Shown: positions 25,824-42,040, counted from the first letter of the stretch. The stretch: 64,000 nt of DNA from Streptosporangium sp. NBC_01495 (GCF_036250735.1 NZ_CP109430.1:682001-746000), one strand, 5' to 3'. Translations and numbers: made by a program. Notes: generated from the letters alone by a model not told the origin.

Positions 25824-26852
25824 ATGGCTCGAAGGTCGACGGTCCAGCGTGATCCCCGGATCGCTGGCGACCCTGAGCTGTCGGCATACCCGGACTTCCC
25901 CGACGATTCCGACCTCGATCGCGCTCCGGCGCGCGGGCGGGGCGCGTCGCGCGGACGCTGGTCCGGTGGGGGTGGCCGCTGGCTGGTGTGGACCGGCCGT
26001 GCCGTGCTCTGGGCGCTCATCGTCGTCATCGTCGTGAACGGGGTCCGCGCGCCCTTCGAGCGCTTCACCCAGCAGAACGCCCCTTCGAACGTGGTGCCCG
26101 CCTCGGGGAACGGCTTCCCCACGGTCCAGGCCTCAGCCTTCGCGGCCCAGTTCGCCGAGGTCTACCTGAACTTCGACGGCGCCCGCCCCTCGGAGAGGGA
26201 GTCGAGACTCGCCCCCTACCTGCCTGAGGGCGCCGAGGCGCAGTTCGGCTGGGACGGTTTCGGCAAGATGAACGCTGGAGCGGTGCAACCGTACGGGATC
26301 GAGGTCGTCGACACCGACAACGCCGTCGTCACCGTCGCCTACCAGTCGGAGAACCGCCGCCAGCTCCTGTCGGTGCCCGTCTACCGCGACCGGGCCGCGG
26401 AGAGGTTCGTCGTCGCCGGGCGTCCGGGCATCCTGCCCGCGCCGAGGGCGGCCGACCTGCCGCCCAAGGGCGCGCCCGAGCGCGACCGCGCCGCGGAGCA
26501 GGAACTGCGCACCACGCTGGAGGACTTCTTCAGGGCGTACGCGGGTGACACCACCGCGCTGCAGCAGTACGCCGACGCCGGGGTCACCCTGCAGGGGTTC
26601 GGGGGCGCGTTCACCCTCCTGCAGCTCAAGGACCTCGCCGTGCCCCTCGGCGGGGGAACCACCCGCGAGGTGACCGCGACGGTCACGTGGGGAGTGCCGT
26701 CGAAGGCGACGCCGTCCACCGATCCGGAACCAGCCGATCCCGGCCAGGCGGAAGGCAAGCTGGAACAGTCCTACTTGCTCACCATGGTCAAACAAGGTGA
26801 CAAGTGGTTCGTCAAGGACATCCGCGGCGCATACCGATCTGTGGCGGGGTAA
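25824..26852 (+). CDS. TcpC/VirB8-like conjugation-type membrane protein
   Basis: 342 aa. A polar N-terminus rich in Asp/Arg/Gly is followed by one membrane helix (LVWTGRAVLWALIVVIVVNGV, about residues 55-75) and then two NTF2-like extracytoplasmic domains (FAAQFAEVYLNFD and ELRTTLEDFFRAYAGD open each). This is the TcpC layout. TcpC proteins form the VirB8-like scaffold of Gram-positive type IV systems. ATG 25824 has GGAGG four bases upstream; the frame's earlier ATG at 25758 does not. First gene of the secretion-like locus. Confidence 0.8.
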   Translation: MARRSTVQRDPRIAGDPELSAYPDFPDDSDLDRAPARGRGASRGRWSGGGGRWLVWTGRAVLWALIVVIVVNGVRAPFERFTQQNAPSNVVPASGNGFPTVQASAFAAQFAEVYLNFDGARPSERESRLAPYLPEGAEAQFGWDGFGKMNAGAVQPYGIEVVDTDNAVVTVAYQSENRRQLLSVPVYRDRAAERFVVAGRPGILPAPRAADLPPKGAPERDRAAEQELRTTLEDFFRAYAGDTTALQQYADAGVTLQGFGGAFTLLQLKDLAVPLGGGTTREVTATVTWGVPSKATPSTDPEPADPGQAEGKLEQSYLLTMVKQGDKWFVKDIRGAYRSVAG

Positions 26853-26988
26853 CGCATGATCGAATGGTGCCGGTCCACGGTGAGCAGAACCCCCCTGATC
26901 GATGAGCCGTCGGTCCGGGTTCCCGCGCTTACGCGCCGCGGACCCGTCGCCGCCCGGCGGGCACGATCGTGAGTACGGAGGACAAGAA

Positions 26989-27279
26989 GTGATTCTCAAG
27001 ACCATGCTGCTGAGCGCCATAGAGCTCGCTCAGCCCACAGCTCCTCCGGCAGGCGTCAACACCGAGGGCCTGGCCGACTTCCTCCGCAGCTTCTTCGCAC
27101 CGCTCTTCCTGGTCATCGTCTCGGTGGTGGCCCTCTTCTTCCTCTTCACCCGTGAGATCACCAGATTCGTCCAGTTCATCATCCTGGCGATCGCCATCGG
27201 CGTGATCTTCTACGTTCCGAACATCATCGAGGTGACTGCCAAGGCGATCGCGGGCGCGCTGGGCATCTCGGGGGGTTGA
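26989..27279 (+). CDS. small two-helix membrane protein, TcpD/VirB2-like
   Basis: 96 aa with two membrane helices (APLFLVIVSVVALFFLF and FVQFIILAIAIGVIFYVPNII) after a short N-terminus. Size and order after tcpC fit TcpD-type or pilin-like subunits of conjugation systems. GTG 26989 has GGAGG seven bases upstream. The 136-base gap before it contains a 38-codon frame (26856-26972) with no recognisable features, which I do not call. The TGA overlaps a TTG (27276) that could couple into the next gene. Confidence 0.7.
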   Translation: MILKTMLLSAIELAQPTAPPAGVNTEGLADFLRSFFAPLFLVIVSVVALFFLFTREITRFVQFIILAIAIGVIFYVPNIIEVTAKAIAGALGISGG

Positions 27280-27326
27280 GACCGGGTTCGAACGGTCAAA
27301 CAAGGAGAGGCGGAGAGGAGGATCAC

Positions 27327-29963
27327 GTGGATCTGCCCACGTACACCAATATCTGGAGGATTGAGAAGCGGCTCTACAAGCTGTACGACCTACGGCTGCC
27401 GATGCCGCTCCCGATTGTCTGGATCGGTGGGTTCGTGGGAGTGCTGGCCCCGTGGTCGCTGCTGCTCTACCTGCTCGGTCTGCCCTTCGCCGCCCCCTGG
27501 CACGTGCTCTACCTGGTGCCGCCCGGTGTCGTCACCTGGCTCTCCACCCGGCCGGTGATCGAGAGCAAGAGGCTCACCGAGCTGCTCCAGTCGCAGGTGC
27601 GCTACGTGGGAGAGCCGCGCACCTGGTGCCGGATGGCCCCCCTCTCCGAGCCCGCCGAGGTCACGCTGAACGGCCGGGTCTGGCGGGCCGCGCCGCAGCA
27701 CGCGGCCGTCCGGGTCAAGGCGTCGCGCAGGGCCAGGCACGCCCAGGCCAGGCGAGCCGCCGTCCGCTCGCGCGAGGTGCGTCCCGCCGTGGCCGCCGCG
27801 GCGGCGGCCGCCGCGACCGCTCCGGTGGCCCGCGAGCGCGTGGCCTGGGCCGAGGTCCACGCCCCTCGTCAGGGCGCCGCCCCGGCCCTCGGCCAGACCC
27901 CGGCAGTCGAGACGTCTCGGGCCGTCGAAGCACCCCGGGCCGTTGAGACGTCTCGGGCCGTCGAGGCCCCCTGGGCCGTCGAGACGCCCCCGGTCACCGT
28001 TCCCGCCGTTCTTCCTGTGCCTTCCGTGCCCCTGGCGCCCCCCGCGCCGCTGCCCGTCGTGACCCCGGTGGCCGAGCCTGTCGCGTTCGCCGAGGCCGCC
28101 GGGTCCGCGCCGGGTACGCCGGTCCTGGGCTCGGCCTCGCGACCGCCCGCCGACCGTTCCCCCGGATCCCCCGGGCGGTCCGAGGTCCAGGCCGATCGCG
28201 CTCCGGCGACCGGATCCACCGCTACGGAGAACGCGGACGACTCGAGGGACGAGGCCCCGGCGGCGTCCGGCGCGACCGCGGCTCCGCCCGCTCCCATCGG
28301 CACCGAGGCGCTGCGGCGCCTGCGCAGGCTCGCGGCCTCCGCCGAGGCCCAGCGCGCCGCCACGGCCCCGGCCGTACCGGACGCGCCTCCCGCACCGGTC
28401 GCGCCCCCGGAGGTGATCGCGCCCGCCGCGTCTGCCGAGACCGTCGCCCCCACCTCGAAGTCTCCCGGCCGGCAGCGGCCCGAGGCCCCGGCCGTGCCGA
28501 CGCCCTCGGCCCCCGAGGCGCCGCGGGTGGAGACACCCGCCCCGGCCCGTGCGGTGCCCGACTCCGCCCAGAAGGGGCCGGCGGTCGTGCCCGACCCCGC
28601 CCAGAAGAGGTCGGCCGTCGTGCCCGACCCCGCCCAGAGGCCCTCCGTCCCGGCCGTTCCCTCCTTCGTGCCGAGGTTCGTCGGACCGGCGCCGATCGGG
28701 CACCGCGCCGCGGAGGCGGCCGAGCTCCCGCAGGACAGACAGGACAGGCAGGACAGGCAGGACAGGCAGGACGGACCGGACGAGGAGAGCGCGCGGCGCC
28801 AGCACCGTAAGGGGCAGCCCGCGCCGATCGGGCGGCCGGTCGACAGGTCGCAGGCGTGGCCGCCGGAGAGGCCCGCGGGCGCGCAGGGCGGTCCCGGCGG
28901 CCCGGCGGGTACCGGCGTCCAGGGAGGCGGCATGTCGATCCGCGCGGTCCCGTCGGGATCGGCCACGGCGGATCCGGTCACCCCGGCGGTGCCGGTGGGT
29001 GGTTCCTCGCGCGGCGAGGCCGAGACCAGGGTCCGCCGGGTGGAGTCGGTGGTCGGCCGCGATTCCTCGGGCGGCTGGCGGCGGCTGGCCCAGGTGGTGA
29101 TCGGACCCGGCGGCGGTGGCCGTACGGACGGCTCGGAGATCGACGAGGCGCGGGCCAGGGCGGTGTTCAGCGGCAGCCGCCGTGTGGTGGTCCTGGGATG
29201 CACCGGCGGCGCCGGGCAGACCACGACCGCGCTCATGCTCGGCCACACCCTCGCCCGCTACCGGGAGGACCGGATTCTCGCGGTCGACGCCAGCACCGGC
29301 TCCCACGCCCTGTCCAGCCGGATCCAGGGAGAGTCGCCCGAGACCCTGACCTCGCTGCTCTCGGGACTCGACAACGTCCAGGGATATCTCGGCATGCGCG
29401 CCTACACCAGCCGCTGCGCCTCGGGGCTGGAGGTCCTCGCCGGAGACAGCGACGCCGGTGCCGAGCAGCGCCTGTCCGACCGCACGCTCTTCTCCGACCG
29501 GCGGCTCGGCCAGACGATGGACATGCTCGACCGGCACTACAAGATGATCGTCATGGACCCGGCGGCGGCTCTGGCCGCGCGGGTCCTCCCCTACGCCGAC
29601 CAGCTCGTTCTCGTCGTCCCGGCCAGCGAGGACGGGCCGGACGCGGTGGCCATGACCTACGAGTGGCTCGACGGGCACGGCTGCGCCGACCTGCGCCACC
29701 GGGCGGTCATGGTGGTCAACGGGGTGAGCCGCCGCAGCATGGCCGACGTGGAGCAGGCGGAGGCGGTCGCGCGGGGCAGGTGCCGGGCGATCGTCCGGGT
29801 TCCCTGGGAGGACGCGCTGGCCCCCGGCAGGGCCGATCGGGTGGAACCGTCCCATCTGAGGGCATCGGGCCGCCGGGCGTACCTCGCCCTGGCCGGTGTC
29901 GTCGTGGCGGGCTTCGGAACGGTTCAGGCGGGTCGACCCAGCGAGGAGGAGTTAGCCCAGTGA
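27327..29963 (+). CDS. TcpE-like membrane domain fused to a ParA/MinD-like domain
   Basis: 878 aa. Residues about 1-120 form a TcpE-like unit (YTNIWRIEKRLYKLYDLRLPMPLP, two membrane helices). Residues about 120-610 are a disordered Ala/Pro/Val linker with repeats (SRAVEAPRAVE; VVPDPAQK; four DRQ triplets). The C-terminal domain (about 610-860) is a MinD/ParA fold: RVVVLGCTGGAGQTTTALML, ILAVDASTGSHAL, IVMDPAAALAARVLPYADQLVLVVP. In the P-loop the expected GKT is GQT and the ParA signature lysine is also missing, so ATP hydrolysis is doubtful. GTG 27327 has AGGAGG five bases upstream. The final TGA overlaps a GTG that opens the small bridging frame. Confidence 0.75.
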   Translation: MDLPTYTNIWRIEKRLYKLYDLRLPMPLPIVWIGGFVGVLAPWSLLLYLLGLPFAAPWHVLYLVPPGVVTWLSTRPVIESKRLTELLQSQVRYVGEPRTWCRMAPLSEPAEVTLNGRVWRAAPQHAAVRVKASRRARHAQARRAAVRSREVRPAVAAAAAAAATAPVARERVAWAEVHAPRQGAAPALGQTPAVETSRAVEAPRAVETSRAVEAPWAVETPPVTVPAVLPVPSVPLAPPAPLPVVTPVAEPVAFAEAAGSAPGTPVLGSASRPPADRSPGSPGRSEVQADRAPATGSTATENADDSRDEAPAASGATAAPPAPIGTEALRRLRRLAASAEAQRAATAPAVPDAPPAPVAPPEVIAPAASAETVAPTSKSPGRQRPEAPAVPTPSAPEAPRVETPAPARAVPDSAQKGPAVVPDPAQKRSAVVPDPAQRPSVPAVPSFVPRFVGPAPIGHRAAEAAELPQDRQDRQDRQDRQDGPDEESARRQHRKGQPAPIGRPVDRSQAWPPERPAGAQGGPGGPAGTGVQGGGMSIRAVPSGSATADPVTPAVPVGGSSRGEAETRVRRVESVVGRDSSGGWRRLAQVVIGPGGGGRTDGSEIDEARARAVFSGSRRVVVLGCTGGAGQTTTALMLGHTLARYREDRILAVDASTGSHALSSRIQGESPETLTSLLSGLDNVQGYLGMRAYTSRCASGLEVLAGDSDAGAEQRLSDRTLFSDRRLGQTMDMLDRHYKMIVMDPAAALAARVLPYADQLVLVVPASEDGPDAVAMTYEWLDGHGCADLRHRAVMVVNGVSRRSMADVEQAEAVARGRCRAIVRVPWEDALAPGRADRVEPSHLRASGRRAYLALAGVVVAGFGTVQAGRPSEEELAQ

Positions 29964-30289
29964 TCCCCCGGGCGCGAGGAGACGTGGTGAGCGGGCGAGA
30001 CGAGGTGCAGGTGGTGATCGGGCAGGCCGGGGTCCGGGCGAGCGGGTCGCACCGGGCGCGGGTGAACGGGTCGTACGAGGTTCGGGTGAGCGGGCTGGAC
30101 AGTAGCGGGCTGGACCGGGTCGGTGCGGTCCGTCCTGGGCGGGTTCGCGAGGGCGGGCCGGGCGAGGTTCGAGTGAGCGGGTGTCGTGGGATCCGGGCCG
30201 GCGAGGGGTCCGGAGGCCGCGCGAACGGGGCCGTGCGAGCGGTGGCCGGGGTGTCGACGGCCCCGGACCCGGGAGGGGAGGGGCCGTGA
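29960..30289 (+). CDS. small bridging ORF before the VirB4 gene (109 aa, degenerate repeats)
   Basis: The GTG at 29960 overlaps the upstream TGA and the frame ends in a TGA (30287-30289) that overlaps the GTG start of the VirB4 gene (30286), so it fills the gap exactly. The peptide is polar, Arg/Gly/Val-rich, with RASG/RVNG/RVSG recurring (RVNGSYEVRVSGLDSSG). The DNA is a decayed GGGTGAGCGGG-type repeat. AGGAGG lies ten bases before the start. No domain is recognised; it could be a real but fast-evolving protein, or only a coupling frame. Confidence 0.45.
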   Translation: MIPRARGDVVSGRDEVQVVIGQAGVRASGSHRARVNGSYEVRVSGLDSSGLDRVGAVRPGRVREGGPGEVRVSGCRGIRAGEGSGGRANGAVRAVAGVSTAPDPGGEGP

Positions 30290-32778
30290 GCCGCGCCTCC
30301 CGGGCGCGCAGCCGCCTGGCCGTCCGATACTTCGACGATCGGATCCTGCTGACCGACTCGTCGGTCTGGGCCTACTTCAGGCTTCCCACCGTGAGCTACG
30401 AGTTCATCACCCCCGAGGAGCGGGAGGCGCTGGCCACCAACATCACGATCGCGCTGGCCGCCATCCGCATGCCCGACGCCGAGGTCCACCTGCGGGTGGC
30501 GCACCGCACCTACCCCGCCGCCGAGTGGGCGATGGCGCTGAACGCCACCTCCGACGAGGGGCCGGGCTGGCGCGACTACCTGGAGGACATGTACCGCCAC
30601 GTCTGGGCCAAGGACTTCTGGACCAAGGAGGTCTACCTCGGCGTGCGGCTCGGCACGCGCGGGCGGCAGCTGGGCACCGGGGTCCTCTCGCAGCTCTTCG
30701 GCTTCTACCAGCGCAGCGAGAAGGCCCTGGGCATCGAGGACGACCACGTCCCCAAGGCGGAGATCGCCAAGTGGTCCGAGCAGGCGGAGCGACTGGGCAG
30801 GGCGCTGTCGGCCAGCGCGCTGTACGCCAGGCACGCCACCTCCGTCGAGCTCGCCTGGCTGTTCCAGCACGCCACGACCGGGTCCCTCGGCGACCCCCCG
30901 GCCTCGGCCAGCCCCAAGCGCCGGTGGGGACAGGGGGAGATCGAGTCCCTCGTCGAGGGGCAGATCCACAACGGCAGGGCGCTGCTGAGGATCGAGCAGC
31001 CGCAGGGCGACTCCTACGTGGCGCACATGTCCTTCGCCCGCTTCCCCGACCTCATGCCCTTCCCCGACGGCGAGCCCTGGATGCACTTCGCCGACCAGCT
31101 GCCCTTCCCCGTGGAGATCAGTTCGAGGATGCGGCTGATCCCGCCCGTCAAGGCGAGCAAGGACGTGGCGCGCAAGCTCGCCCACGCCCGTGACATGGAC
31201 ATCCACATCCGCGAGGCGGGCGCGGAGGCGCCGCTGGCCCTGGCCGAGCAGATCGACGCGGCCAGGATGCTGGAGCACGGCATCACCAAGGAGCGCCTGC
31301 CGTTCGTGTACGGCTGGCACCGCCTGATCGTGTCGGCCCCGACCGAGGAGATCTGCGTGCAGCGGGTCGAGGCGGTCGTGGAGCACTACCGCGACATGGG
31401 CATCGACATCGTCAACTCCACCGGCGACCAGTTCTCGCTGTTCTGCGAGACGCTGCCGGGCGAACGGGTCCGGGTCAACGCCTACGCGCAGCGCCAGCCG
31501 CTGCGCACCATCGCGGGCGGCATGGCCACCGCCACCGTCGACCTGGGCGACCGGACGGACGAGAGCGGCTCGGGCTGGATGGGCCCGTACGTCGGGGAGA
31601 CCCTGGGCCGGGCCCGCAGCATCGTGCACTTCGACCCGCTGGTGGCGGCGACGCGCAACCGGCCGACGGCCATCGCCATCACCGGCGAGCCCGGCGGCGG
31701 CAAGACCACGCTGGCGCTGCTGATGATCTACCAGATGGCGCTGCGCGGGGTGACGGTCGCGGTCATCGACCCCAAGGGCGACGCCGAGTCGCTGGTGCAG
31801 CTGCTGCAGAAGCGGGGCAGGAAGGCGCGGATCATCCCCCTCGGTTCGGCGGCTCCCGGCCTGCTGGACCCGTTCTCGTTCGGCGACGACCTGGCGGCCA
31901 AGAAGACGATGGCCACCGAGACCCTGCGTCTGCTGCTGCCTCGCATGTCGGAGGAACGCGAGTCGGCGATGATCCAGGCGGTCGCCGCGGTGTCCAACGC
32001 CGAGGACCCGTCGCTGGGCAAGGTCGTCGACTTCCTGGAGCAGACCGAGGACGCCGCCTCCAAGAACCTGGGCGCGGTGCTCCGCTCCATGTCGGACATG
32101 CATCTGGCCAGGCTCTGCTTCGACCCCTCGGGCGGCGACCAGATCGACACCGAGGGCTGGACCACGGTCTTCACCCTGGGCGGCCTGACGCTGCCCGACG
32201 CCTCCACCGGCCGCGACGACTACTCGTACGAGCAGAGGCTGTCGGTGGCGCTGCTCTACCTCGTCGCGCAGTTCGCGCGAGGTCTGATGAACGGCCTGGA
32301 CCGGCGGACGCCCAAGGCGATCTTCCTGGACGAGGCGTGGGCGATCACCTCCACCCCCGAGGGGGCCAAACTGGTGCCCGAGGTCAGCCGGATGGGCCGC
32401 TCCCGCAACACGGCGCTGGTCCTGGTCTCGCAGAACGCCGGAGACCTGCTGAGCGAGCAGGTGACGAACTGCCTGTCGTCGGTCTTCGCGTTCCGCTCCA
32501 CGGAACGGGTCGAGGTGGAGCACGTGATGGCGCTGCTCGGGGTCGAACCCTCCGAGGAGCACAAGGCGGTGCTGCGTTCGCTCGGCAACGGCGAATGCGT
32601 CTTCCGGGATCTGGACGGTCGCGCGGGCCGTATAGGGGTGGACCTGATCTCGGATGAGCTGCTGCGCTGGCTGGACACGAATCCGACCCACGACAAACCC
32701 GACGAGAAAGTGCATGATCTTCCTGGGGGCGACAGAGTCGGTAGGCCGGGGGCTGCGGCGCTGGAGGTGCGGTCATGA
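30286..32778 (+). CDS. VirB4/TraC-like type IV secretion ATPase (TcpF-like)
   Basis: 830 aa. An N-terminal domain of about 450 residues (LAVRYFDDRILLTDSSVWAYF, FWTKEVYLGVRLG) is followed by a RecA-like motor with Walker A GEPGGGKTTLALLM (near residue 467), RGVTVAVIDPKGDAESLVQLL, Walker B PKAIFLDEAWAI (near 677) and a sensor-type Gln in LVLVSQNAGDL. It is the energy source of a type IV apparatus. GTG 30286 has GGGAGGGG upstream and overlaps the bridging frame's stop. Its own TGA overlaps the next ATG (32775). Confidence 0.88.
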   Translation: MSRASRARSRLAVRYFDDRILLTDSSVWAYFRLPTVSYEFITPEEREALATNITIALAAIRMPDAEVHLRVAHRTYPAAEWAMALNATSDEGPGWRDYLEDMYRHVWAKDFWTKEVYLGVRLGTRGRQLGTGVLSQLFGFYQRSEKALGIEDDHVPKAEIAKWSEQAERLGRALSASALYARHATSVELAWLFQHATTGSLGDPPASASPKRRWGQGEIESLVEGQIHNGRALLRIEQPQGDSYVAHMSFARFPDLMPFPDGEPWMHFADQLPFPVEISSRMRLIPPVKASKDVARKLAHARDMDIHIREAGAEAPLALAEQIDAARMLEHGITKERLPFVYGWHRLIVSAPTEEICVQRVEAVVEHYRDMGIDIVNSTGDQFSLFCETLPGERVRVNAYAQRQPLRTIAGGMATATVDLGDRTDESGSGWMGPYVGETLGRARSIVHFDPLVAATRNRPTAIAITGEPGGGKTTLALLMIYQMALRGVTVAVIDPKGDAESLVQLLQKRGRKARIIPLGSAAPGLLDPFSFGDDLAAKKTMATETLRLLLPRMSEERESAMIQAVAAVSNAEDPSLGKVVDFLEQTEDAASKNLGAVLRSMSDMHLARLCFDPSGGDQIDTEGWTTVFTLGGLTLPDASTGRDDYSYEQRLSVALLYLVAQFARGLMNGLDRRTPKAIFLDEAWAITSTPEGAKLVPEVSRMGRSRNTALVLVSQNAGDLLSEQVTNCLSSVFAFRSTERVEVEHVMALLGVEPSEEHKAVLRSLGNGECVFRDLDGRAGRIGVDLISDELLRWLDTNPTHDKPDEKVHDLPGGDRVGRPGAAALEVRS

Positions 32779-35267
32779 AGGTCTCCCGTAAGGGATTCGA
32801 GGGCTTTCGCGAGAGACGGTCCCGCAACGGGCCGAAGGGTTCTCGCGAGAGGGGTTCCCGCAGGGGACGGCTGGGCAGGCGGATCGCCATCGGGCTGGTG
32901 GTGCTGGCCGCCTTCCTCGCGCTGCCGCTCGCGTTCCCCGGCGACACGTCCACGGCAGTCGCCGCGGCTCCCTGCGACATGTCTCCCGACCTGTCCCCGG
33001 ACATGGTCGCCGGAGGCGTGGACGGCCTGATCCAGCCGCCGCTTCCCGACCCCGCCCAGCCGGGCGCCCCTGCGGCGCAGCCCCCGGCGACGCAGGGCAA
33101 CTACGCGACGTACGGCATGAGCGGCCAGTTCTGGCACACCCACATGCTCGGCTGCGACGACATCGCCGCGGTGATGGGCAACGCGATGGCCAACACGGTC
33201 TTCCTGTGGGCCAAGGCGCTGGACCGGCTGACCATCACGACCTACCAGGCGGCGGCCACCGAGGGGCCGCTGGAATCGATCAAGAACGTCGTCGACGACA
33301 TGGTGGTCCGCCTGGCCGACGCCATGTACTGGCCGTACCTGCGGCCGCTGGTGATCCTCGGCGCCATCTGGCTGGCCTGGTACGGGCTGATCCGCAAGCG
33401 CGCCACCACCACCGCCGAGGGTGTCATCTGGATGGTCCTCGCGGTCACGGTGGCGGTCTGGTTCTTCAGCCGCCCCGGCGACCTCACGGGTCTGGGCAAG
33501 GTCGTCACCGACAAGACCGGCGAGGTGGTCAACTCCGCCTTCTCCGGGCTGCCCGGCGCGGGCGGCACCTCCTGCCTGCCCGCGAAGGGAGAGGCCAACC
33601 CGCAGGTCCAGGGCGGCGGGTACGGCCAGAGCGGCGTGCCGGGCGTCGAGCAGAACTCCGACGCGCTCTGGTCCACCCTGGTCTGCAAGCCGTGGCTGAT
33701 GGGCCAGTTCGGCACGGCCGACGCCAACGCCCCCATCATCAAGGTGTTCGGCGCCAAGCTGCTGGAGATCCAGACGATCGACGCGGCCGAGATGAAGTCC
33801 GAGCAGATGCCGGAGGCGAACTCCCACCAGGCGAGATACGAGACGGAGGTCGCCGACAAGCTGCAGAACACGCCGGTCTTCCCCCTCTTCCAGGGCAAGG
33901 ACTGGACGAGCCGCCTGGGGGTCGCGATCGGCGCCCTCATGGCCGCGGTGGTCGCGGGGCTGCTGATCTTCCTGGTGGCGGTCTCGCTGCTGGTGCTCAA
34001 GGTCGGGTTCCTGCTGCTGCTCATCCTCGCGCCGGTCTTCCTGCTGATCGGCGTCCATCCGGGATCCGGGCGGATCATCGCCATGCGCTGGGTGGAGATG
34101 CTGATAGGCACCCTGCTCAGACAGGCCGTGCTCGCCCTCGTCCTCGGCGTGCTCGTCTACGGCTACGCCCTGATCATCTCCACGGCGATGCCGTGGGGCA
34201 TGCAGGTCATGTTCATGGCGATCCTGACGATCGCGGTGTTCTTCTACCGGCGGCCGTTCCAGCACCTGTTCTCGTCCATGGACGGGCACACGCTCACCAC
34301 CCGGATGCTCGGCGACGCGGCGACCGCGCCGACCCTGCAGCGGGCGGCGTCCGCGCTGCCGCCGGTCGCGGCGGCCAGGGTGGGCCGGTGGGGCATGCGC
34401 AAGGCCGAGCCGATGCTGCAGGCGGCCGCGATGGCCGGCGGAGCCTCCGTCGGCGCGGCGGCGGCCGCGGTCGCCCAGGGCAGGGTCCGCGGCGAGGACG
34501 GCGGTGCCACGCCGGCCACACCGTCGGGCACCCGGGTCCCGACCGGCGCCCAACCGGCGCCGCTCGACACCGACTCCCAGGCGGCGGGGCGGCGCAAGGG
34601 CACCGGCAGGCCGGTCACCGCGGCCCGCCCCGGCGCGGCGCCGCCGCTCAACCTCTCCGGAGCCGGTACGGGAGGCGGCGCGCCCCCCACCCGGGCCGCA
34701 GGCTCCTCCGGGCGCGGCTCGGGCGGGTCGGGCGGTTCCGGCGGCTGGTTCGGCGGCCGTTCCGGCGGCTGGGCCCCGCAGGGAGGCTCGGGCGGCCGGT
34801 CCTCCTCGGGTGGCGGGTCCTCCTCGGCGGGCAGGTCGTCCGGTTCCCCGGCGGTCCGGCCCTCGGCACCCTCGCCGGGCAGGTCGTCCGGTTCCTCGGG
34901 TTCCTCCGGCTCCTCGGGCGGTGGCGGTCGTTCCGGCGGGAGCATCTTCGGCGGCGGTGGATCCTCCCGGGGCTCCTCGGGCTCCGGCTCCTCGCGAGGC
35001 GGCTCCGGCTCGGGATCGCGTAACGGCGGGTCCTCCCGCGGCTCCTCGGGTTCCGGCGGTTCCGGCGGTTCCGGTGGTTCCGGTGGTTCCGGCGGGAGCA
35101 TCTTCGGCGGCTCCTCCCGGAGCTCCGGTGGTTCGCGCAACCGTGACTCCGGAGGCAGGTCGTCCGAGGCGCCCCCGCTCTGGATCACCAGGCGGGCGGA
35201 GCGCGGCGGGGAGGCCGGTGAGCCGCCGCCGTTCTGGCTGCGCCCGTCCAACCGCGGCAAGGACTGA
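32775..35267 (+). CDS. TrbL/VirB6-like multi-pass channel protein with Gly/Ser-rich tail (TcpH-like)
   Basis: 830 aa. About seven membrane segments (RRIAIGLVVLAAFLALPLAF, LRPLVILGAIWLAWYGLI, a long 33900-34060 hydrophobic pair, LLRQAVLALVLGVLVYGYA, VMFMAILTIAVFFY) place it as the inner-membrane channel. The first 35 residues are a basic tandem repeat (two units of about 35-40 bases, 32790-32870). The last roughly 250 residues (34500-35210) are almost pure Gly/Ser/Arg/Pro, with two SGGSIFGG motifs. Base composition in the tail is extreme. ATG 32775 overlaps the VirB4 stop. Confidence 0.8.
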   Translation: MKVSRKGFEGFRERRSRNGPKGSRERGSRRGRLGRRIAIGLVVLAAFLALPLAFPGDTSTAVAAAPCDMSPDLSPDMVAGGVDGLIQPPLPDPAQPGAPAAQPPATQGNYATYGMSGQFWHTHMLGCDDIAAVMGNAMANTVFLWAKALDRLTITTYQAAATEGPLESIKNVVDDMVVRLADAMYWPYLRPLVILGAIWLAWYGLIRKRATTTAEGVIWMVLAVTVAVWFFSRPGDLTGLGKVVTDKTGEVVNSAFSGLPGAGGTSCLPAKGEANPQVQGGGYGQSGVPGVEQNSDALWSTLVCKPWLMGQFGTADANAPIIKVFGAKLLEIQTIDAAEMKSEQMPEANSHQARYETEVADKLQNTPVFPLFQGKDWTSRLGVAIGALMAAVVAGLLIFLVAVSLLVLKVGFLLLLILAPVFLLIGVHPGSGRIIAMRWVEMLIGTLLRQAVLALVLGVLVYGYALIISTAMPWGMQVMFMAILTIAVFFYRRPFQHLFSSMDGHTLTTRMLGDAATAPTLQRAASALPPVAAARVGRWGMRKAEPMLQAAAMAGGASVGAAAAAVAQGRVRGEDGGATPATPSGTRVPTGAQPAPLDTDSQAAGRRKGTGRPVTAARPGAAPPLNLSGAGTGGGAPPTRAAGSSGRGSGGSGGSGGWFGGRSGGWAPQGGSGGRSSSGGGSSSAGRSSGSPAVRPSAPSPGRSSGSSGSSGSSGGGGRSGGSIFGGGGSSRGSSGSGSSRGGSGSGSRNGGSSRGSSGSGGSGGSGGSGGSGGSIFGGSSRSSGGSRNRDSGGRSSEAPPLWITRRAERGGEAGEPPPFWLRPSNRGKD

Positions 35268-35269
35268 CA

Positions 35270-35956
35270 ATGATCGAGGGAGGCAGCCGGCGGGGAGCCG
35301 TCTTCGCGGTGCTGGTCGTGATACTCGCCGCCGTCGGCGTCTACCTGACCATGTGGCCGGACGCCGGAGAGGGACCGGAGACCCCGGCGGAGCCGGCGGG
35401 CGTCACCCGTACCGTGGCGTCCGGGCAGGAGCCGGCCGCGGAGCCGGCGCGCCCGGCGGCGACGGCCAGCAACGCGCCCTTCGACGTCTACTCCTACCTG
35501 CCGATGACCAAGCAGGAGCTGGCCGCCGCCGCCGACTACGCGCAGCGTTTCACCGCCGAGTACGGCACGTTCAGCTACGACGAGGACCCGGCGGTCTACG
35601 GCGACCGCCTCAAGGGGTACGTCACGGCGGAATTCTCCGGGGCGCTGCTGCGGACCGTCACCTCGCCGGGCACCGTCGAGGCGAACAGGGCCGACGAGAT
35701 CGTCTCGGTCGGGGCGGCGCGGGTGAAGGAGATCCGGCAGATCGACAGTGCCTCGGTGGTCTTCGTGGTCGTCGGCACCCAGAACGTCACGGCCAGGAGC
35801 GGGGTGAACGAGAGGACCGCGGAGTACGCCGTCACGCTCATCCAGGTCGGCGCCGAATGGCGGGTCCACGATCTCCAGCCCGCGGACTCCGGCCAGGAGG
35901 GGGACGACCAGCTCTCCGAGACCGGTGCGACCGGCGAGACCGGCGAGACCGGATGA
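35270..35956 (+). CDS. single-pass VirB8/NTF2-like accessory protein
   Basis: 228 aa. One N-terminal helix (GAVFAVLVVILAAVGVYLTMW), a Pro/Ala/Glu spacer and then an NTF2-like extracytoplasmic domain (AAADYAQRFTAEYGTFSYDED ... VVFVVVGTQNVTARSGVNE ... YAVTLIQVGAEWRVHDLQ). The C-terminus ends in a Gly-Glu-Thr repeat (ETGATGETGETG). It lies two bases after the channel gene. Its stop overlaps the ATG of a 14-codon frame. It likely helps scaffold the apparatus; no closer family recognised. Confidence 0.65.
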   Translation: MIEGGSRRGAVFAVLVVILAAVGVYLTMWPDAGEGPETPAEPAGVTRTVASGQEPAAEPARPAATASNAPFDVYSYLPMTKQELAAAADYAQRFTAEYGTFSYDEDPAVYGDRLKGYVTAEFSGALLRTVTSPGTVEANRADEIVSVGAARVKEIRQIDSASVVFVVVGTQNVTARSGVNERTAEYAVTLIQVGAEWRVHDLQPADSGQEGDDQLSETGATGETGETG

Positions 35957-35997
35957 GCGCCGAGATCACGTACGGGACGGGCGGCGGGGGCGGATGA
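35953..35997 (+). CDS. 14-codon bridging mini-ORF
   Basis: The ATG at 35953 overlaps the upstream TGA (ATGA). The frame (ending YGTGGGGG) closes with a TGA that overlaps the ATG (35994) of the wall-hydrolase gene, again as ATGA. It exactly fills the 37-base gap between the two genes. The product is too short for a function to be proposed; the likely role is to pass ribosomes to the next start, whose own GGGGCGG leader is weak. Confidence 0.4.
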   Translation: MSAEITYGTGGGGG

Positions 35998-37091
35998 GGA
36001 ACAACAAAAACCTCCGCCTCGCGCTGATCCTCGGGGTCGCCGCGCTCTGCCTGATCACGCTGATCATGGCGCCGATGATGATGATCAGCGGCTTCCCCAC
36101 CTTCCCGTCGATCACCGGGGAGGCGCAGCCCGAGTGCGGGGACACCGCGCAGTCGGTGGAGGACCAGTCGGAGACCGCGACGTCCGACATCCCCGAGGAG
36201 TATCTGAAGCTGTACCGCGAGCACGGCCGGAAGGTCGGCGTGCAGTGGAACGTGCTCGCCGGGGTCGGCAAGCGCGAGACCAACCACGGCCGTTCCACGC
36301 TTCCCGGCGTGCGGAGCGGCACCAACTACGCGGGCGCCGCCGGGCCGATGCAGTTTCTCATCAGCACGTGGGGCGGCAAGGCCAAGATCAAGATCCCGTC
36401 CACGTTCAACGGCTACGCCTCCGACGGCGACGGAGACGGCTGGGCCGACGTGTACAACCCGGCGGACGCCATCCTAGGCGCGGCGAAGATGCTGAAGCGG
36501 AACGGCGCGCCGGAGGACGTGCGACGTTCGCTGTTCGTCTACAACCGTGCCTGGTGGTACGTCGACCAGGTCATGGAGATCGCCGGGAAGTACGCCAAGG
36601 ACGGCGAGGTCACCGTCCCGCCCGAGGCGGACGACAGCTGCGACGAGCCCATGCTGGAGGCGGCGCCGACGAGCACGGTGGCCGCGATCCTCGAGTACGC
36701 GCTGGCCCAGCGCGGCAAGCCCTACATCTGGGGCGGTACGGGTCCGGCGGGCTACGACTGCTCGGGGATCATCTACATGGCCTACCGGAGCGTCGGCCTC
36801 ACCATCCCGCGCACCACGTTCGGCCAGTGGCCGTTCGGCGTGGAGGTTTCCGAGGGGGAGGAGCAGGCGGGAGACCTCGTCTTCTTCAACTCCGGTCCAG
36901 GAACCGGCCCAGACCGTCCCGGGCACGTGGGAATGGTGGTCTCTCCGGGCAAGATGGTCGAGGCGAGATGCCGGCTGTGCGGGCCGATCAAGGTCACCAC
37001 CTATCGGGAGCGCACCGGGATCGTGGGATTCACCCGGCCGCTGCAACACCCCCAGGTCCTCGCGCAACTCAAGTCGCGGGAGCAGGGCTGA
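35994..37091 (+). CDS. lytic transglycosylase-NlpC/P60 cell-wall hydrolase (TcpG-like)
   Basis: 365 aa. An N-terminal membrane helix (ALILGVAALCLITLIMAPMMMISG) is followed by a lytic-transglycosylase-like domain (GVGKRETNHGRS with the probable catalytic Glu, AGPMQFLISTWGG) and a C-terminal NlpC/P60 peptidase with Cys (YDCSGIIYMAY, near residue 256) and His (PGHVGMVVS). Such enzymes open peptidoglycan for Gram-positive conjugation or secretion machines. It is the last gene clearly tied to the type IV-like set. Confidence 0.88.
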   Translation: MRNNKNLRLALILGVAALCLITLIMAPMMMISGFPTFPSITGEAQPECGDTAQSVEDQSETATSDIPEEYLKLYREHGRKVGVQWNVLAGVGKRETNHGRSTLPGVRSGTNYAGAAGPMQFLISTWGGKAKIKIPSTFNGYASDGDGDGWADVYNPADAILGAAKMLKRNGAPEDVRRSLFVYNRAWWYVDQVMEIAGKYAKDGEVTVPPEADDSCDEPMLEAAPTSTVAAILEYALAQRGKPYIWGGTGPAGYDCSGIIYMAYRSVGLTIPRTTFGQWPFGVEVSEGEEQAGDLVFFNSGPGTGPDRPGHVGMVVSPGKMVEARCRLCGPIKVTTYRERTGIVGFTRPLQHPQVLAQLKSREQG

Positions 37092-37105
37092 CAGAATCGG
37101 GAGCC

Positions 37106-37519
37106 ATGGAAAAGGTCGTTGTGGGCGCCGCCATCGTCGACGGCGACGGGAGATTGCTCGCCGCTCAGCGTGCTGACCCTCCCGAGCTGGCCGGAGGGTG
37201 GGAACTGCCCGGGGGGAAGGTCGATCCCGGGGAGGACGAGCACGCGGCACTGGTCAGGGAGTGCCAGGAGGAGCTCGGCGTGCTGATCGAGGTGGGCGAG
37301 CGCGTCGGCGGAGACTGGGCGCTCGCCGGCGGCTACGTCCTCCGGGTCTGGCTCGCGGTGGTCGCCGAGGGCAAGCCCGAGGCGAGGGAGCATCTGGATC
37401 TGCGCTGGCTGACCGAGGACGAGCTCTACGACGTGGCGTGGCTCCCCGCGGACCTTCCAATCGTCCGGGCGGTACAAGGTCGTCTCAACGATGGGCAAGG
37501 TCGGTTCAATAAGGATTGA
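37106..37519 (+). CDS. NUDIX hydrolase, MutT-like
   Basis: 137 aa. The complete Nudix box GGKVDPGEDEHAALVRECQEELGV is present, preceded by VVGAAIVDGDGRLLAAQRA, as in 8-oxo-dGTP or CTP pyrophosphohydrolases of the MutT group. The ATG at 37106 comes 14 bases after the hydrolase stop. The frame is open far upstream but has no other supported start. No functional link to the secretion locus is evident. Confidence 0.9.
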   Translation: MEKVVVGAAIVDGDGRLLAAQRADPPELAGGWELPGGKVDPGEDEHAALVRECQEELGVLIEVGERVGGDWALAGGYVLRVWLAVVAEGKPEAREHLDLRWLTEDELYDVAWLPADLPIVRAVQGRLNDGQGRFNKD

Positions 37520-37596
37520 TCCACTCCGCAGCGTGACATAACTGCTACTGGACGTGGCGATGTCGCGTGTCCGTACCCGGGGAACGGAGATATGCG

Positions 37597-39477
37597 GTGA
37601 CCGTATGGTGGCGTGGTGCTGGGTTCGTGTCGGCGGTCGGAGCGGGGGTGCTCGTCCTTGGAGCCTCGGGGGTGTACGCCGTCCAGATGGACGAGCCGGC
37701 CCCGCTGCCCCTCGACCTGGCCGCCGTCGCCGACCCCGGCACATGGGCGCGGGGGAGCCGCGTCGACCAGGTGATCCGCTACCGCATCCGGCTGCGGGGA
37801 CCGGGCACCGACGCGCGGCTGGCGGTCCTGACGACCCCCGCCGAGGCGCTCAGGGGCATCGAGTGCTCCGAGGAGACCAGGTCGTCGGCGCCTCTCCCCA
37901 AGGGGGTGGGGGTGTGCATGGTCGGCGCCCTGCCCGCCGAGGGCGGCACCGTCGACGTGCTGCTCGCCGTGCCGGATCGCCCGCAGGACATCACGGTGTC
38001 CGCCCTGGCCCGGATGAACGGCCCCGACGGCAAGCTGGTGAGGCAGCAGGCCCAGAGCACGATCAAGAGCTCGGACGCGGTGATGCGGGGCGGGGGTGTC
38101 GCCGGAGGACTGGAGACGCTGGAGCACGCCCGCGCCGCGAGGGAGGCCAGGTCCGCCGAGACCCGCCCCGGAGCGGGGGCGCCAGGTGCCGCCAGCATGG
38201 TCCTCAGTGTTCCCCAGACGGTCGAGGAGACCGGAGGGGTCCCTTTGGTCGCACCCGGTGTCTCGGAGGCGCAGAGGGCCGAGCAGCGCATGTCGGCGTT
38301 CCTTCTCGATCTCGCCGGGAAGTCGTTCGTCCTCCCGGCTCCGAAACCGGGCGAGGCGGGTGCGAACGGTGCCGCCGGGGTTCCGGCGGGTCCGGTCGCT
38401 CCCGGCCTTCCGCCGCAGGGAACGCGGCTTCCGGACGGCGCCGCGGCCCCGGGCGCCGAGCCGGAGGCCGGTACGGATGTGCCCGGCCAGGGACAGGCCG
38501 CCGTACCGCCGGCGGAGGTGCCCGCGGCCCCCACGCTTCAGGGACAGAACGGTAGGAATCACTCGGCCATGGGCTCCCAGACAGGTCGCAAGGCAGCCGG
38601 TCGGAAGGCGCACGGGCAACGGCACGCGGCCGGCCGGTCCGGTGCGCGCGGGCAGGGGGCGAACCGGCAGGCTCTCCGGCAGACGGGTCCCGGCCGGCCG
38701 GTGACCGGGCTGCCCGGGGTGCCGCAGCCGGTACCCGGCCAGCCGGGGCTCCAGCAGATGGGTCCCGTTCATCCCGGAATCGGGCAGAAGACAGCCGGTC
38801 GGCCCGGAGCGCGCCCGCCGGTGGTCGGGCCGATGGTTCCCGGCTATCCGGGGGGTGGCCAGTGGCCCGCCGCCGGGCAACCCGCCGTGCCCGGCCAGGG
38901 CATGGCCGGCAGGCCCGGTGCGGGGCTCCAGGGTGCGGGGCAGCCGATGCCCCAGGGCTACCCGGGAGGGCAGCCGATGCCCCAGGGTTATCCGGGGATG
39001 GCGGGACCGCCGGGAACGGCCGGGCAGCCCGGCGTGCCGCAGCAGGGTCCGGGCGGGCCGATGGGCGGCCCCATGGCTCCCGGCCACCCGGGAACGGTGC
39101 AGCAGCCGGGCGGGCCGCAGATGCCGGGCGCGCAGCCGGGCGGGCCGCAGGCGCCGGGGGGCATGACGCCGCCGATCTCGATGGGCATGGCGGGGGCGGG
39201 CCAGATGCCCGGTCTCGTGAACGGTCTCCAGCTGCCGCAGGCGGGTCCCCTCCCCGCCGCGCAGGTCCCCCTTCCGCAGGACCCGCGCCCGCAGGGAGCG
39301 CCACTCCCGCAGGACCTCGACGGCCCGAACGGCCAGGTCCGGCCGGTCGCCGAGTCAAGTCCGCTGACAGGGGTGACGGGTCTCCCCGCGGTGGGGGCGG
39401 CGGTGGGAGCGCTGCTCGGCCTCCTGTGGCTGCAGAGGAGGATCCAGCGCCGCCGCCGGTCGCGACACGTTTTGTAA
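37597..39477 (+). CDS. long disordered membrane-anchored surface protein (Pro/Gly/Gln repeats)
   Basis: 626 aa. An N-terminal hydrophobic segment (GAGFVSAVGAGVLVLGASGVYAVQ), a folded region of about 120 residues with two Cys (GIECSEETRSS, KGVGVCMVGALP), then roughly 350 residues of Pro/Gly/Gln/Ala repeats (GQPMPQGYPG twice, PGGPQMPG, PQAPGGM). The C-terminus has one membrane helix and a basic tail (AVGAAVGALLGLLWLQRRIQRRRR), so most of the protein lies outside the cell. GTG 37597 has GGAGA six bases upstream. No sortase LPxTG/LAxTG motif is seen. Unknown function; pairs with the next gene. Confidence 0.6.
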   Translation: MTVWWRGAGFVSAVGAGVLVLGASGVYAVQMDEPAPLPLDLAAVADPGTWARGSRVDQVIRYRIRLRGPGTDARLAVLTTPAEALRGIECSEETRSSAPLPKGVGVCMVGALPAEGGTVDVLLAVPDRPQDITVSALARMNGPDGKLVRQQAQSTIKSSDAVMRGGGVAGGLETLEHARAAREARSAETRPGAGAPGAASMVLSVPQTVEETGGVPLVAPGVSEAQRAEQRMSAFLLDLAGKSFVLPAPKPGEAGANGAAGVPAGPVAPGLPPQGTRLPDGAAAPGAEPEAGTDVPGQGQAAVPPAEVPAAPTLQGQNGRNHSAMGSQTGRKAAGRKAHGQRHAAGRSGARGQGANRQALRQTGPGRPVTGLPGVPQPVPGQPGLQQMGPVHPGIGQKTAGRPGARPPVVGPMVPGYPGGGQWPAAGQPAVPGQGMAGRPGAGLQGAGQPMPQGYPGGQPMPQGYPGMAGPPGTAGQPGVPQQGPGGPMGGPMAPGHPGTVQQPGGPQMPGAQPGGPQAPGGMTPPISMGMAGAGQMPGLVNGLQLPQAGPLPAAQVPLPQDPRPQGAPLPQDLDGPNGQVRPVAESSPLTGVTGLPAVGAAVGALLGLLWLQRRIQRRRRSRHVL

Positions 39478-39484
39478 AACGCGG

Positions 39485-39512
39485 TTTACTGTTACTTTTG
39501 CCCAACTAGTAT
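39485..39512 (+). promoter_or_regulatory. probable promoter of the second membrane-anchored protein gene
   Basis: TTTACT (39485-39490) and TAGTAT (39507-39512) are spaced by 16 bases in an unusually AT-rich patch, 42 bases before the GTG at 39554. The downstream gene may therefore be transcribed separately from the secretion operon. Confidence 0.45.
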
Positions 39513-39553
39513 TTCTTTGACGTGTTCATGGGTTGATTGCGCGGAGGGCACCG

Positions 39554-41044
39554 GTGACGCGAGCACGGCGCAGGGCAGCTGTCTCCGCCGTTGTGATGTC
39601 CGTGGGACTCAGCGGCGCGGTCCTGCTCGCCCTGGTGCCGCTCACCGGCCCCTCCGCGGCCGGCGCGACCATCAGGACGATGGTCGTCGAGCCGTCGCAG
39701 ATCGAGGGCTGTGACATCGATCCCGCGGGCCCCTGCGAGGAGCCCACGCCGATCGTCACCGTCACGGTCACCGAGGATCCCCAGGGCGGCTCCGAGGAGA
39801 CCGCCGTGCCGCAGAAGACCGTGACCACCACGGTCACCGTCCCGGCGTCGCCGAAGCCCCCCAAGGCCACGAAGACGACGGCTCCGCCCCCGCCCCCGCA
39901 GGAGACGGCGGTCGCGCCGCCGCCGGTCCAGGAGACGACCCCGGTGGTCCCGCCCGCCGAGACCGGCACGCCGGAGAGCAACGACCCCCAGTTCCCGCCG
40001 ACCACCCCCGAGCCGAGCCAGCTGCCCACCGTCACGCCCACGCCGTCCGACACCGCCACGCTCGACGAGAGCGCCGCCGGCACCTCCGTGTACGAGATCC
40101 GCAACGCGGGTTCCGAGTTCGACGGGGCCACGCTGAGCCGCCAGCTCGGCGTCCCGGCGCTGATCCTGGTGCTGCTGGTGCTGTTCGCGGTCCTGATCTT
40201 CGAGGGCAGGCTGCGCCGCCTGGCCCACGCCGCGGCCATCCGCCGGGCCGGTCCGCGTGCGATGGGCCGCGATCCGATGGACCCGATGGCCTACCCCGGC
40301 GGTCCCGGCTACGGCGCCGGACCCGGTTACGCCCCTGGCCCCTACCAGGGCGGTACGGCCTACGCGCCGATCATCAGCTTCGTGCCCATGCAGATGTACG
40401 CCCCGGTCTACCCGGAGGGCTACACCCCCGAGCAGTACCCCCAGGGGTACGACCAGACGACGGCGTACATGCCCGCGGGCTACGAGCAGCAGCAGCCGGT
40501 CGCCGGTCACGGTGACCCGTACGACCCGCAGGCCGGACAGTCGCCCTACGGCCCGACGCTCCAGGACGGCCCGACGCTCCAGGACGGCTCGGCGGCCACG
40601 TTCCAGGGCACCTCGCAGTCCGGCCCCGACTCCCGCGAGGAGCGCCTCCCGCAGGGGGCGCCGGAGTTCCCCGGGGCGCCGTTCCCGCAGGAGCCCCCTC
40701 GGGGCGGTACGGGGTTCGACGGCCCGAGAGACGACTTCCGGTCGTTCGGTCCCACCGCTCCCGGTGACGCCCCCGGCCAGGGCCCTTCGCCGGACCGGAC
40801 CCTCCAGGACGACTCCACTCCGCCCGGCCGGGAATCGCGGGGCGACAGCGGGCCGGAGCGCGAGGCCATGACCTTCGGGCCCGAGTCGCAGAACGGCCCC
40901 GACGGCCGGCCGGCCGGGGGCGAGGGGCTTCCCGCCGAGCCGACCCCGACGGCGGTCTATCCGCTCCCCGGCCAGCCCTCCGACAAGGACACCGACAAGG
41001 ACGGCGGCAAGAAGAAGCGCGGCCTCTTCCGCCGCTCCACCTGA
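39554..41044 (+). CDS. membrane protein with disordered outer and inner arms
   Basis: 496 aa. An N-terminal signal/anchor (RAAVSAVVMSVGLSGAVLLALVPL) is followed by a Thr/Pro/Val-rich stalk (VTVTVTEDPQGG, TVTTTVTVPASPKPPKATKTTAPPPPPQ), a single helix (LGVPALILVLLVLFAVLIF, near residues 203-221) and a long Tyr/Pro/Gly/Gln-rich cytoplasmic tail with a duplicated GPTLQDGPTLQDG and a Lys/Asp-rich end. GTG 39554 has GGAGGG five bases upstream. It resembles the preceding gene in composition and topology rather than sequence. No family recognised. Confidence 0.6.
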   Translation: MTRARRRAAVSAVVMSVGLSGAVLLALVPLTGPSAAGATIRTMVVEPSQIEGCDIDPAGPCEEPTPIVTVTVTEDPQGGSEETAVPQKTVTTTVTVPASPKPPKATKTTAPPPPPQETAVAPPPVQETTPVVPPAETGTPESNDPQFPPTTPEPSQLPTVTPTPSDTATLDESAAGTSVYEIRNAGSEFDGATLSRQLGVPALILVLLVLFAVLIFEGRLRRLAHAAAIRRAGPRAMGRDPMDPMAYPGGPGYGAGPGYAPGPYQGGTAYAPIISFVPMQMYAPVYPEGYTPEQYPQGYDQTTAYMPAGYEQQQPVAGHGDPYDPQAGQSPYGPTLQDGPTLQDGSAATFQGTSQSGPDSREERLPQGAPEFPGAPFPQEPPRGGTGFDGPRDDFRSFGPTAPGDAPGQGPSPDRTLQDDSTPPGRESRGDSGPEREAMTFGPESQNGPDGRPAGGEGLPAEPTPTAVYPLPGQPSDKDTDKDGGKKKRGLFRRST

Positions 41045-41296: not shown

Positions 41297-41337
41297 CTAA
41301 AATAGAGACTCTCTGATTTAGAGTCTCTCTATTTTAG
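41297..41337. promoter_or_regulatory. palindromic operator upstream of the MarR gene
   Basis: Perfect 12-base arms CTAAAATAGAGA (41297-41308) and TCTCTATTTTAG (41326-41337) flank a second dyad, AGAGACTC (41304-41311) / GAGTCTCT (41321-41328). Their centres differ by one base. The element is AT-rich in a GC-rich genome and ends 25 bases before the MarR start. This is where an autoregulatory MarR dimer would bind. Confidence 0.75.
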
Positions 41338-41361
41338 AGAGACTGGAAAGAGAGAACCGCC

Positions 41362-41838
41362 GTGTCAACGGAGTCGGAAGGCCGCGAAGAGATGATCATG
41401 GCCGTGTCCGATCAGGGGCGCCTGACGGCGATGCGGTCGGCGCTGTTCCACGTCGGCGTGGCCGGCCGGGCCGGGATCAACGTGACCGACCTCAACTGCC
41501 TGGCCGTCCTCGACAGGGAGGGCCCGCTGACCCCCCACGACCTCGCCGTGCGGATAGGGCTGACGCGTGGTGGCGCCATCACCGCGGTCGTGGACCGTCT
41601 GCAGAGAGCGGGATACGTGCGCCGCGGCCGGGACGGCGCCGACCGGCGCCGCGTCCTTGTCGAGCTGGTACGCGAGGGCCCCTACCGCGCGCTGCAGGAG
41701 ATCCAGGCGGACGTCAACCGGGCCTACGCCGATCTCGCCGGGAGCTACAGCGACGCGGAGCTGACGATCATCCATGACTTCGCCGTCCGCGCCAACGACG
41801 TCATGCGGAGGCAGGCCCAGCGGCTGTGGCGGGACTGA
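41362..41838 (+). CDS. MarR-family regulator
   Basis: 158 aa. The winged helix spans about residues 45-110: VTDLNCLAVLDREGPLTPHDLAVRIGLTRGGAITAVVDRLQRAGYVRRGRDGADRR (read in pieces; recognition helix RGGAITAVVDRL, wing DGADRRRVLVEL). The start is GTG 41362 behind AAGAGAG; ATG 41392 and 41398 are alternatives. The strong palindrome directly upstream implies autoregulation. No divergent target gene adjoins; the downstream gene is on the other strand. Confidence 0.88.
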   Translation: MSTESEGREEMIMAVSDQGRLTAMRSALFHVGVAGRAGINVTDLNCLAVLDREGPLTPHDLAVRIGLTRGGAITAVVDRLQRAGYVRRGRDGADRRRVLVELVREGPYRALQEIQADVNRAYADLAGSYSDAELTIIHDFAVRANDVMRRQAQRLWRD

Positions 41839-41839
41839 A

Positions 41840-42040
41840 ACCGGTGACCCGCTATACTCCCGGGCCTCCGCCCCGCCTCGCCGTGCGGACCTCGGCCTTC
41901 GCCTTGCCTCTTCGTGCGAACCTCAGCCCTCACCCCGCTTCTCCGTGCGGGCCTCGGCCTTCGCCCTGCCTCTCCGCGCGGACCCCGGCCTCCGCCTTGC
42001 CTTGCCGTGCGGCCTTCCGGCGGGAGCCCGCACGGAGAGG
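41840..42040. repeat. degenerate tandem repeat between MarR and the first sdh operon
   Basis: Units of roughly 30-33 bases with the core CGTGCGGACCTCGGCCTTCG and CTTGCCTCTC recur about five times with substitutions. They resemble the 15.1-kb array in motif (CGTGCG, GCCTCGG). The remaining gap to 42105 has GC-rich inverted pairs (GACGGCGCCGTC) that could end the minus-strand operon. Confidence 0.75.

Follow-up and report, generated by a model that had tools for sequence, protein, structure and literature searches.

What a conjugation-type secretion channel does in a chromosome when no genes for handling DNA lie beside it is the question raised by the locus studied here. It was found at 25824-37091 of a 64,000-nucleotide stretch of Streptosporangium sp. 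NBC_01495 (NZ_CP109430.1:682001-746000; the window). A first-pass annotation, made from the sequence alone, had read it as a Tcp-like gene set resembling that of Clostridium plasmids, possibly a domesticated secretion machine for proteins. A seven-gene Tcp-type secretion channel was confirmed, in the order TcpC, TcpD-like, TcpE, VirB4, TrbL, second VirB8 and SLT-NlpC/P60. The best explanation, to which we give a probability of about one half, is that a Tcp/MPF_FA conjugation channel has been fixed in the chromosome and domesticated, with a likely role at the envelope or septum during hyphal growth or sporulation.

Protein identities were tested by profile search (Pfam, NCBIfam) and are listed in the table, where coordinates are those of the whole window. 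The gene order proposed in the first-pass annotation agreed with the profile matches and with the fold of the VirB8-like protein, the TcpD match being marginal. VirB4/TcpF, TcpE, TcpC/VirB8, VirB6/TrbL and SLT-NlpC/P60 stand in one operon, which is the composition of a Tcp/MPF_FA channel module of the Gram-positive type IV secretion systems (T4SSs). Both Walker motifs of VirB4, GEPGGGKTT and AIFLDEAW, were intact in the alignment. For the protein with a weak TpcC match, an AlphaFold2 model built from 35 orthologs gave an NTF2-like domain with a predicted local distance difference test score (pLDDT) of about 97, and its closest PDB structures were the VirB8-type proteins CagV, DotI, PrgL and IcmL; this protein was therefore assigned as a second VirB8.

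The core calls of the earlier gene list held, with two corrections. A NUDIX hydrolase gene had been omitted, and the gene called TcpE encodes an 880-residue fusion, in which a previously unreported MinD/ParA-like domain follows a long linker. The model of this C-terminal domain (pLDDT 79) was matched by Foldseek to FlhG, FleN, Soj and MinD, which points to a MinD/ParA fold. Its P-loop reads GCTGGAGQ(T/S)T (GCTGGAGQT in the window copy), so that Gln stands in place of the catalytic lysine and the signature lysine is missing as well. The Gln was invariant in 26 aligned orthologs and in 80/80 named GTDB loci, none of which showed the deviant Walker A motif KGGxGKT of MinD/ParA ATPases. The fusion formed a single reading frame in most loci compared; one locus with two frames and two loci in which the retrieved sequence did not yield the TcpE part were left unscored. 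The simplest reading is that the domain is a conserved pseudo-ATPase.

The distribution of the locus was determined with the window VirB4 as query. An ortholog was present in 295/295 sampled genomes of the family and in the single sampled genome of a second family, and in 0/3 genomes of a third family of the same order. In the class-wide sample, VirB4 within the family was at least 77% identical, whereas genomes outside reached at most 31% over long stretches. The named carriers included Streptosporangium, Planobispora, Planomonospora, Sinosporangium, Nonomuraea, Microtetraspora, Microbispora, Acrocarpospora, Sphaerisporangium, Planotetraspora and Herbidospora. When 20-kb stretches were compared, the order TcpC-TcpD-TcpE/ParA-VirB4-TrbL-VirB8-SLT/NlpC was common to divergent genera, ychF was the upstream neighbour wherever the compared stretch reached that far, and sdhBAC followed the locus in most of the Streptosporangium-Nonomuraea clade. 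The second family kept both the gene order and the ychF side. In one genome an insertion of about 6.5 kb that carries a Ser/Thr kinase gene separated virB4 from trbL, all core genes and the ychF side being kept.

Selection was estimated as the ratio of nonsynonymous to synonymous substitution (dN/dS, Nei-Gojobori) between the window genome and three congeners. The ratio was 0.03-0.09 for VirB4, below that of the neighbouring ychF (0.14-0.17), 0.05-0.16 for TcpD and 0.17-0.48 for the other machine genes. In-frame TGA codons were reported in some VirB4 matches; the one checked, at residue 832 of 837, is the natural gene end. Direct repeats with copies on both flanks were looked for and not found, as the first-pass annotation had stated of the flanks, and the search for tRNA genes in the window was likewise negative. 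The locus is not an integrative conjugative element (ICE): it has no flanking repeats, occupies the same site in the compared loci and is present in all sampled family genomes. The proposed comparison of locus and flanks across the order thus gave family-wide presence on the same ychF side, rather than presence in some strains with attachment sites. The locus belongs to the core genome and is passed on vertically rather than being mobile.

No relaxase, coupling protein or recombinase gene was seen in the window, in agreement with the earlier reading. Elsewhere, such genes were present in part of the order genomes: the coupling protein PF02534 in 99/201, the PF03432 relaxase in 40/201 and MobF (TrwC, PF08751) in 33/121. 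Several genomes, among them G011 and the single-contig G016, kept the locus and were listed for none of the three. Since these families are patchy across the order, none is co-inherited with the locus. A linked or co-inherited relaxase was not found among the families searched (PF03432 and TrwC; other relaxase families were not searched), nor did profile search find a linked or co-inherited coupling protein of VirD4 or TcpA/FtsK type. In the window's genome, AAA_10 scored above cut-off for this VirB4 only; the PF03135 profile had no match there, the ATPase being recognised by AAA_10 rather than by that profile. The locus is thus a chromosomal, conserved channel with VirB4 and without relaxase or coupling protein, that is, a domesticated T4SS of the VirD4-less and MOBless kind. 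Given its order-wide occurrence at one fixed site, the purifying selection and the absence of a co-inherited relaxase or coupling protein, the locus is chromosomally fixed and, we infer, domesticated. To this extent the idea of a domesticated conjugation-type machine was upheld, while proteins as its cargo are possible only.

Candidates for a missing coupling protein were rejected. FtsK-like proteins of about 480-600 residues, which recur in the complete genomes, were considered as a hidden TcpA; the three loci read carry an integrase and a Rep-type gene and are elements of the actinomycete integrative and conjugative element (AICE) type. A VirD4 gene near the locus in one genome lies at a distance of 9 kb, next to a gene for an M48-type peptidase, and in relatives it is located elsewhere. 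Separately, it was observed that the FtsK-like gene recurs across the family (L094-L099 and L104), and that the three integrative elements (L095, L097 and L099) also carry GntR-type genes.

The locus was compared with the Tcp gene set of Clostridium perfringens pCW3, as we take it to be composed, and with Tn916-type MPF_FA systems. Shared with these are TcpC, TcpD-like, TcpE, TcpF/VirB4, TrbL-type and wall-hydrolase genes in one operon. It differs in having no FtsK-type TcpA coupling protein or relaxase, and in its second VirB8, its TcpE-pseudo-ATPase fusion and its order-wide chromosomal fixation.

The same VirB4 was found in plasmid records of Nocardiopsis at 70-74% identity. The circular 91-kb N. 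exhalans plasmid NZ_CP099838 carries all seven genes, with a VirB4 74% identical to that of the window and a MinD/ParA gene belonging to the set. In contrast to the chromosomal locus, it is plasmid-borne and has its own MobF relaxase and VirD4, and its TcpE and MinD/ParA are separate genes, the latter with an intact P-loop lysine (KGGVGKTT). The same T4SS set is present on a linear plasmid of 145 kb in Nocardiopsis sp. MT53. In a maximum-likelihood tree, 30 chromosomal VirB4s grouped together to the exclusion of the plasmid sequences (support 89/100, not starred). A system of the NZ_CP099838 type is the likely conjugative ancestor, and the history was probably a single domestication in which MobF and VirD4 were lost, MinD was joined to TcpE and the P-loop lysine disappeared. 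Two further systems were noted. The Nonomuraea linear plasmid NZ_CP107854 has a VirB4 system of 28% identity with an FtsK-type coupling gene directly downstream, an example of a coupled version. The two genomes listed for a further family of the class (f39) each have a VirB4 relative of 31% identity with a TrbL-like neighbour, and this locus is possibly another chromosomally fixed T4SS.

These observations can be joined into one mechanism. The Tcp/MPF_FA channel of a plasmid- or ICE-like element would have become fixed next to ychF in the lineage ancestral to most Streptosporangiales; relaxase and coupling protein would have been lost, its MinD/ParA partner fused to TcpE and the P-loop lysine given up, and vertical inheritance with strict retention would have followed. 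In the present machine, VirB4 would power a membrane complex of TrbL, TcpE and TcpD, joined to a wall-spanning channel of TcpC and the second VirB8, for which the complex's own peptidoglycan hydrolase would open the wall. Through its tether to TcpE, the pseudo-MinD domain may position or dock the complex rather than cycle on ATP. The job would not be self-directed DNA transfer, and the most likely output would be a role at the envelope or septum as hyphae grow or sporulate.

Moderate support for such a developmental output, which we favour over protein secretion, comes by analogy from Streptomyces coelicolor. There the chromosomal cluster cmdA-F (SCO4126-4131) resembles plasmid transfer genes, and its deletion disturbs sporulation, septation and chromosome segregation and leaves plasmid transfer unaffected (PMC2782261). 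Like the present locus it is chromosomal, conserved and transfer-gene-like, with a VirB4-type ATPase (PMC2782261). It differs in belonging to another T4SS branch, of the SCO6880 type with a TraG/VirD4-like protein as judged from locus L101, and it has no TcpC/TcpE set. L101 (G315:C1:4.19-4.21 Mb) encodes a 105-residue transmembrane (TM) protein, a TrbL-like protein, an SCO6880-family protein, a VirB4-like ATPase with a functional lysine (K90) and a TraG-like protein, and is probably the Streptomyces cmd cluster, the assignment of G315 to Streptomyces being our own. The cmd ATPase was about 25% identical to the window VirB4 and is not its ortholog. No CmdB-like protein of more than 34% identity was found in 151 order genomes with the L101-based query; therefore the two lineages seem to have fixed different T4SS-derived clusters. 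More tentatively, and with odds somewhat below even, the order may have turned a conjugation channel into a housekeeping envelope machine without coupling protein or relaxase, placed by a MinD-fold pseudo-ATPase, as Streptomyces would have done in parallel with an unrelated T4SS (cmd). If so, a conjugation-derived developmental complex would be a recurrent invention of hyphal actinomycetes. The candidate sits at one fixed site in all genomes sampled from a large family of soil actinomycetes that are available in culture. It is also an example of conjugation genes joining the core genome, with a mobile relative that still has the DNA-handling parts.

Several points weigh against a domesticated developmental channel. 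FtsK itself, or an FtsK-type or very divergent coupling protein, could escape the profile search. The plasmid VirB4s are not fully placed in the tree, given its distant outgroup, so that capture of the chromosomal genes by plasmids is possible; in that case the intact MinD/ParA would have to come from elsewhere. For the developmental output the argument is one of analogy with a cluster that is not orthologous, and the identity of L101 as cmd was itself drawn from gene layout and K90.

Table. Genes of the secretion locus and its downstream neighbours (window coordinates).
Product	Position	Strand	Evidence
TcpC-like (VirB8-class, one TM helix), cell-wall channel protein	25824..26852	+	Pfam TpcC E=2e-15; ortholog in every complete locus compared
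TcpD-like small membrane protein, two TM helices	26980..27279	+	marginal TcpD match 0.085; synteny
TcpE (VirB3-like) N-terminus, long Pro/Ala-rich linker, MinD/ParA-fold C-terminal domain (modelled)	27327..29963	+	Pfam TcpE 7.5e-19 (N-terminus); fold match FlhG/ParA/Soj
VirB4/TcpF ATPase	30289..32778	+	AAA_10 2e-67; NCBIfam TcpF 3e-73
TrbL/VirB6 polytopic membrane protein, Gly/Ser-rich tail	32775..35267	+	PF04610 3e-8; CD3337/EF1877 1e-22
Second VirB8-like protein, one TM helix and NTF2-like domain	35270..35956	+	TpcC 0.002 (weak); AlphaFold2 fold
VirB1-like wall hydrolase, SLT transglycosylase and NlpC/P60	35994..37091	+	PF13406 4e-7; PF00877 2e-18
NUDIX hydrolase	37106..37519	+	PF00293 9e-18; synteny
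S1, long Pro/Gly-rich protein, N-terminal signal/TM, C-terminal TM and basic tail	37567..39477	+	TM scan; clade-specific accessory
S2, N-terminal TM, central TM, long disordered tail	39533..41044	+	TM scan; clade-specific accessory

Downstream of the core, the NUDIX gene sits between the NlpC/P60 gene and two genes for disordered proteins, S1 and S2. It was co-located in most clades and missing in some, and its membership of the machine is uncertain. The two disordered proteins (37597-41044) had been put forward as candidate parts or cargo, a proposal that was not sustained as a general rule: their presence at this position was confined to the Streptosporangium-Nonomuraea-type clade, whereas in other clades with the seven-gene core the NlpC/P60 gene is followed by typA or unrelated genes. 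Their dN/dS of 0.45-0.92 indicated fast evolution. S1 and S2 were thus rejected as core parts and are accessory at best.

These proteins bear on a coupling-protein-independent secretion of proteins, in which substrates would enter via Sec or directly through VirB4/TrbL and be released at the surface, as proposed for Ptl and Brucella VirB. VirD4-less T4SSs that act as protein secretors, pili or DNA uptake machines are known in diderm pathogens, whereas the T4SSs of Gram-positive bacteria have almost all been described as moving DNA (PMC12857230). Bordetella Ptl, Brucella VirB, Bartonella Trw and H. pylori ComB likewise consist of a channel with VirB4 and without coupling protein or relaxase (PMC12857230); they differ in occurring in diderm pathogens, in belonging to other MPF types and in being confined to species or genera rather than an order. 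This likeness and the fast-evolving, clade-specific, surface-type S1/S2 adjoining the operon speak for secretion. No universal cargo gene was found, however, S1/S2 being missing at this position in several clades; effector-like proteins were not seen, and a monoderm cell has no outer membrane for a two-step route to cross. Protein secretion is considered possible, but less likely than the developmental reading.

Conjugation in trans, in which plasmids or ICEs bringing a relaxase and a coupling protein would borrow the chromosomal channel, is less probable. The plasmid-borne version linked to MobF and VirD4 does indicate that this channel type is compatible with DNA transfer. In the window's genome, however, the VirD4-type matches lie on contig C2 (358 kb), and the main one, considered as a partner in trans, forms part of another T4SS, of the SCO6880 type, which has an ATPase of its own. 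The same contig carries a PF03432 relaxase; a relaxase of MobF type lies at C1:10.24 Mb. Many family genomes without a PF02534, PF03432 or PF08751 gene keep the locus, the N. exhalans plasmid has a full set of its own, and plasmid transfer did not suffer from cmd deletion in Streptomyces (PMC2782261). On C2 itself, the SCO6880-type T4SS (253-263 kb) includes, beside VirD4, an SLT protein 43% identical to that of the window; elsewhere on the contig are a second full-length FtsK gene and the PF03432 relaxase.

A surface filament or pseudopilus, in which VirB4 would build a short fibre from TcpD-like subunits, to serve in adhesion or the uptake of DNA, is more doubtful still. The TcpD-like protein, a possible VirB2/VirB3-type part, was after VirB4 among the most conserved parts (62-98% identity across the family), and ComB and Trw, which lack a coupling protein, are thought to act in this way (PMC12857230); on the other side, no pilin homology of the TcpD-like protein was found, though none was tested for. 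A decaying ICE remnant, which conjugation genes without relaxase or integrase might suggest, was refuted by conservation, since VirB4 is open in every listed family genome and under strong constraint, at the same site in the compared loci and without attachment-like flanking repeats.

The domesticated channel falls within classes already described. A class of MOBless T4SSs, chromosomal and without relaxase, was proposed to be domesticated in a survey by Guglielmini et al. (2011), which recorded few T4SSs in Actinobacteria (PMC3158045). That class is a statistical one, and the Streptosporangiales locus is not described in the part of the survey drawn on here (PMC3158045). No description of the locus was found in open-licence papers on Nonomuraea, Nocardiopsis, Thermobifida and Streptosporangiales. 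The MOBless and VirD4-less classes are thus known, and what is new is this locus, its TcpE-MinD fusion with an invariant Gln and the plasmid relative with MobF and VirD4.

Three minor features of the flanks were observed. A stand-alone Peripla_BP_6-like gene lies at 24355-25353 between ychF and tcpC; it looks lineage-specific, because the ychF-tcpC gap of another locus (L058) is too small to hold one. A GC-rich tandem repeat with a 31-bp unit in about 4.8 copies occupies 41863-42012, between a MarR-type gene (41362-41838) and sdhB. Directly upstream of the MarR-type gene, palindromes at 41303-41340 (AGAGACTCT) form a possible autoregulatory operator.

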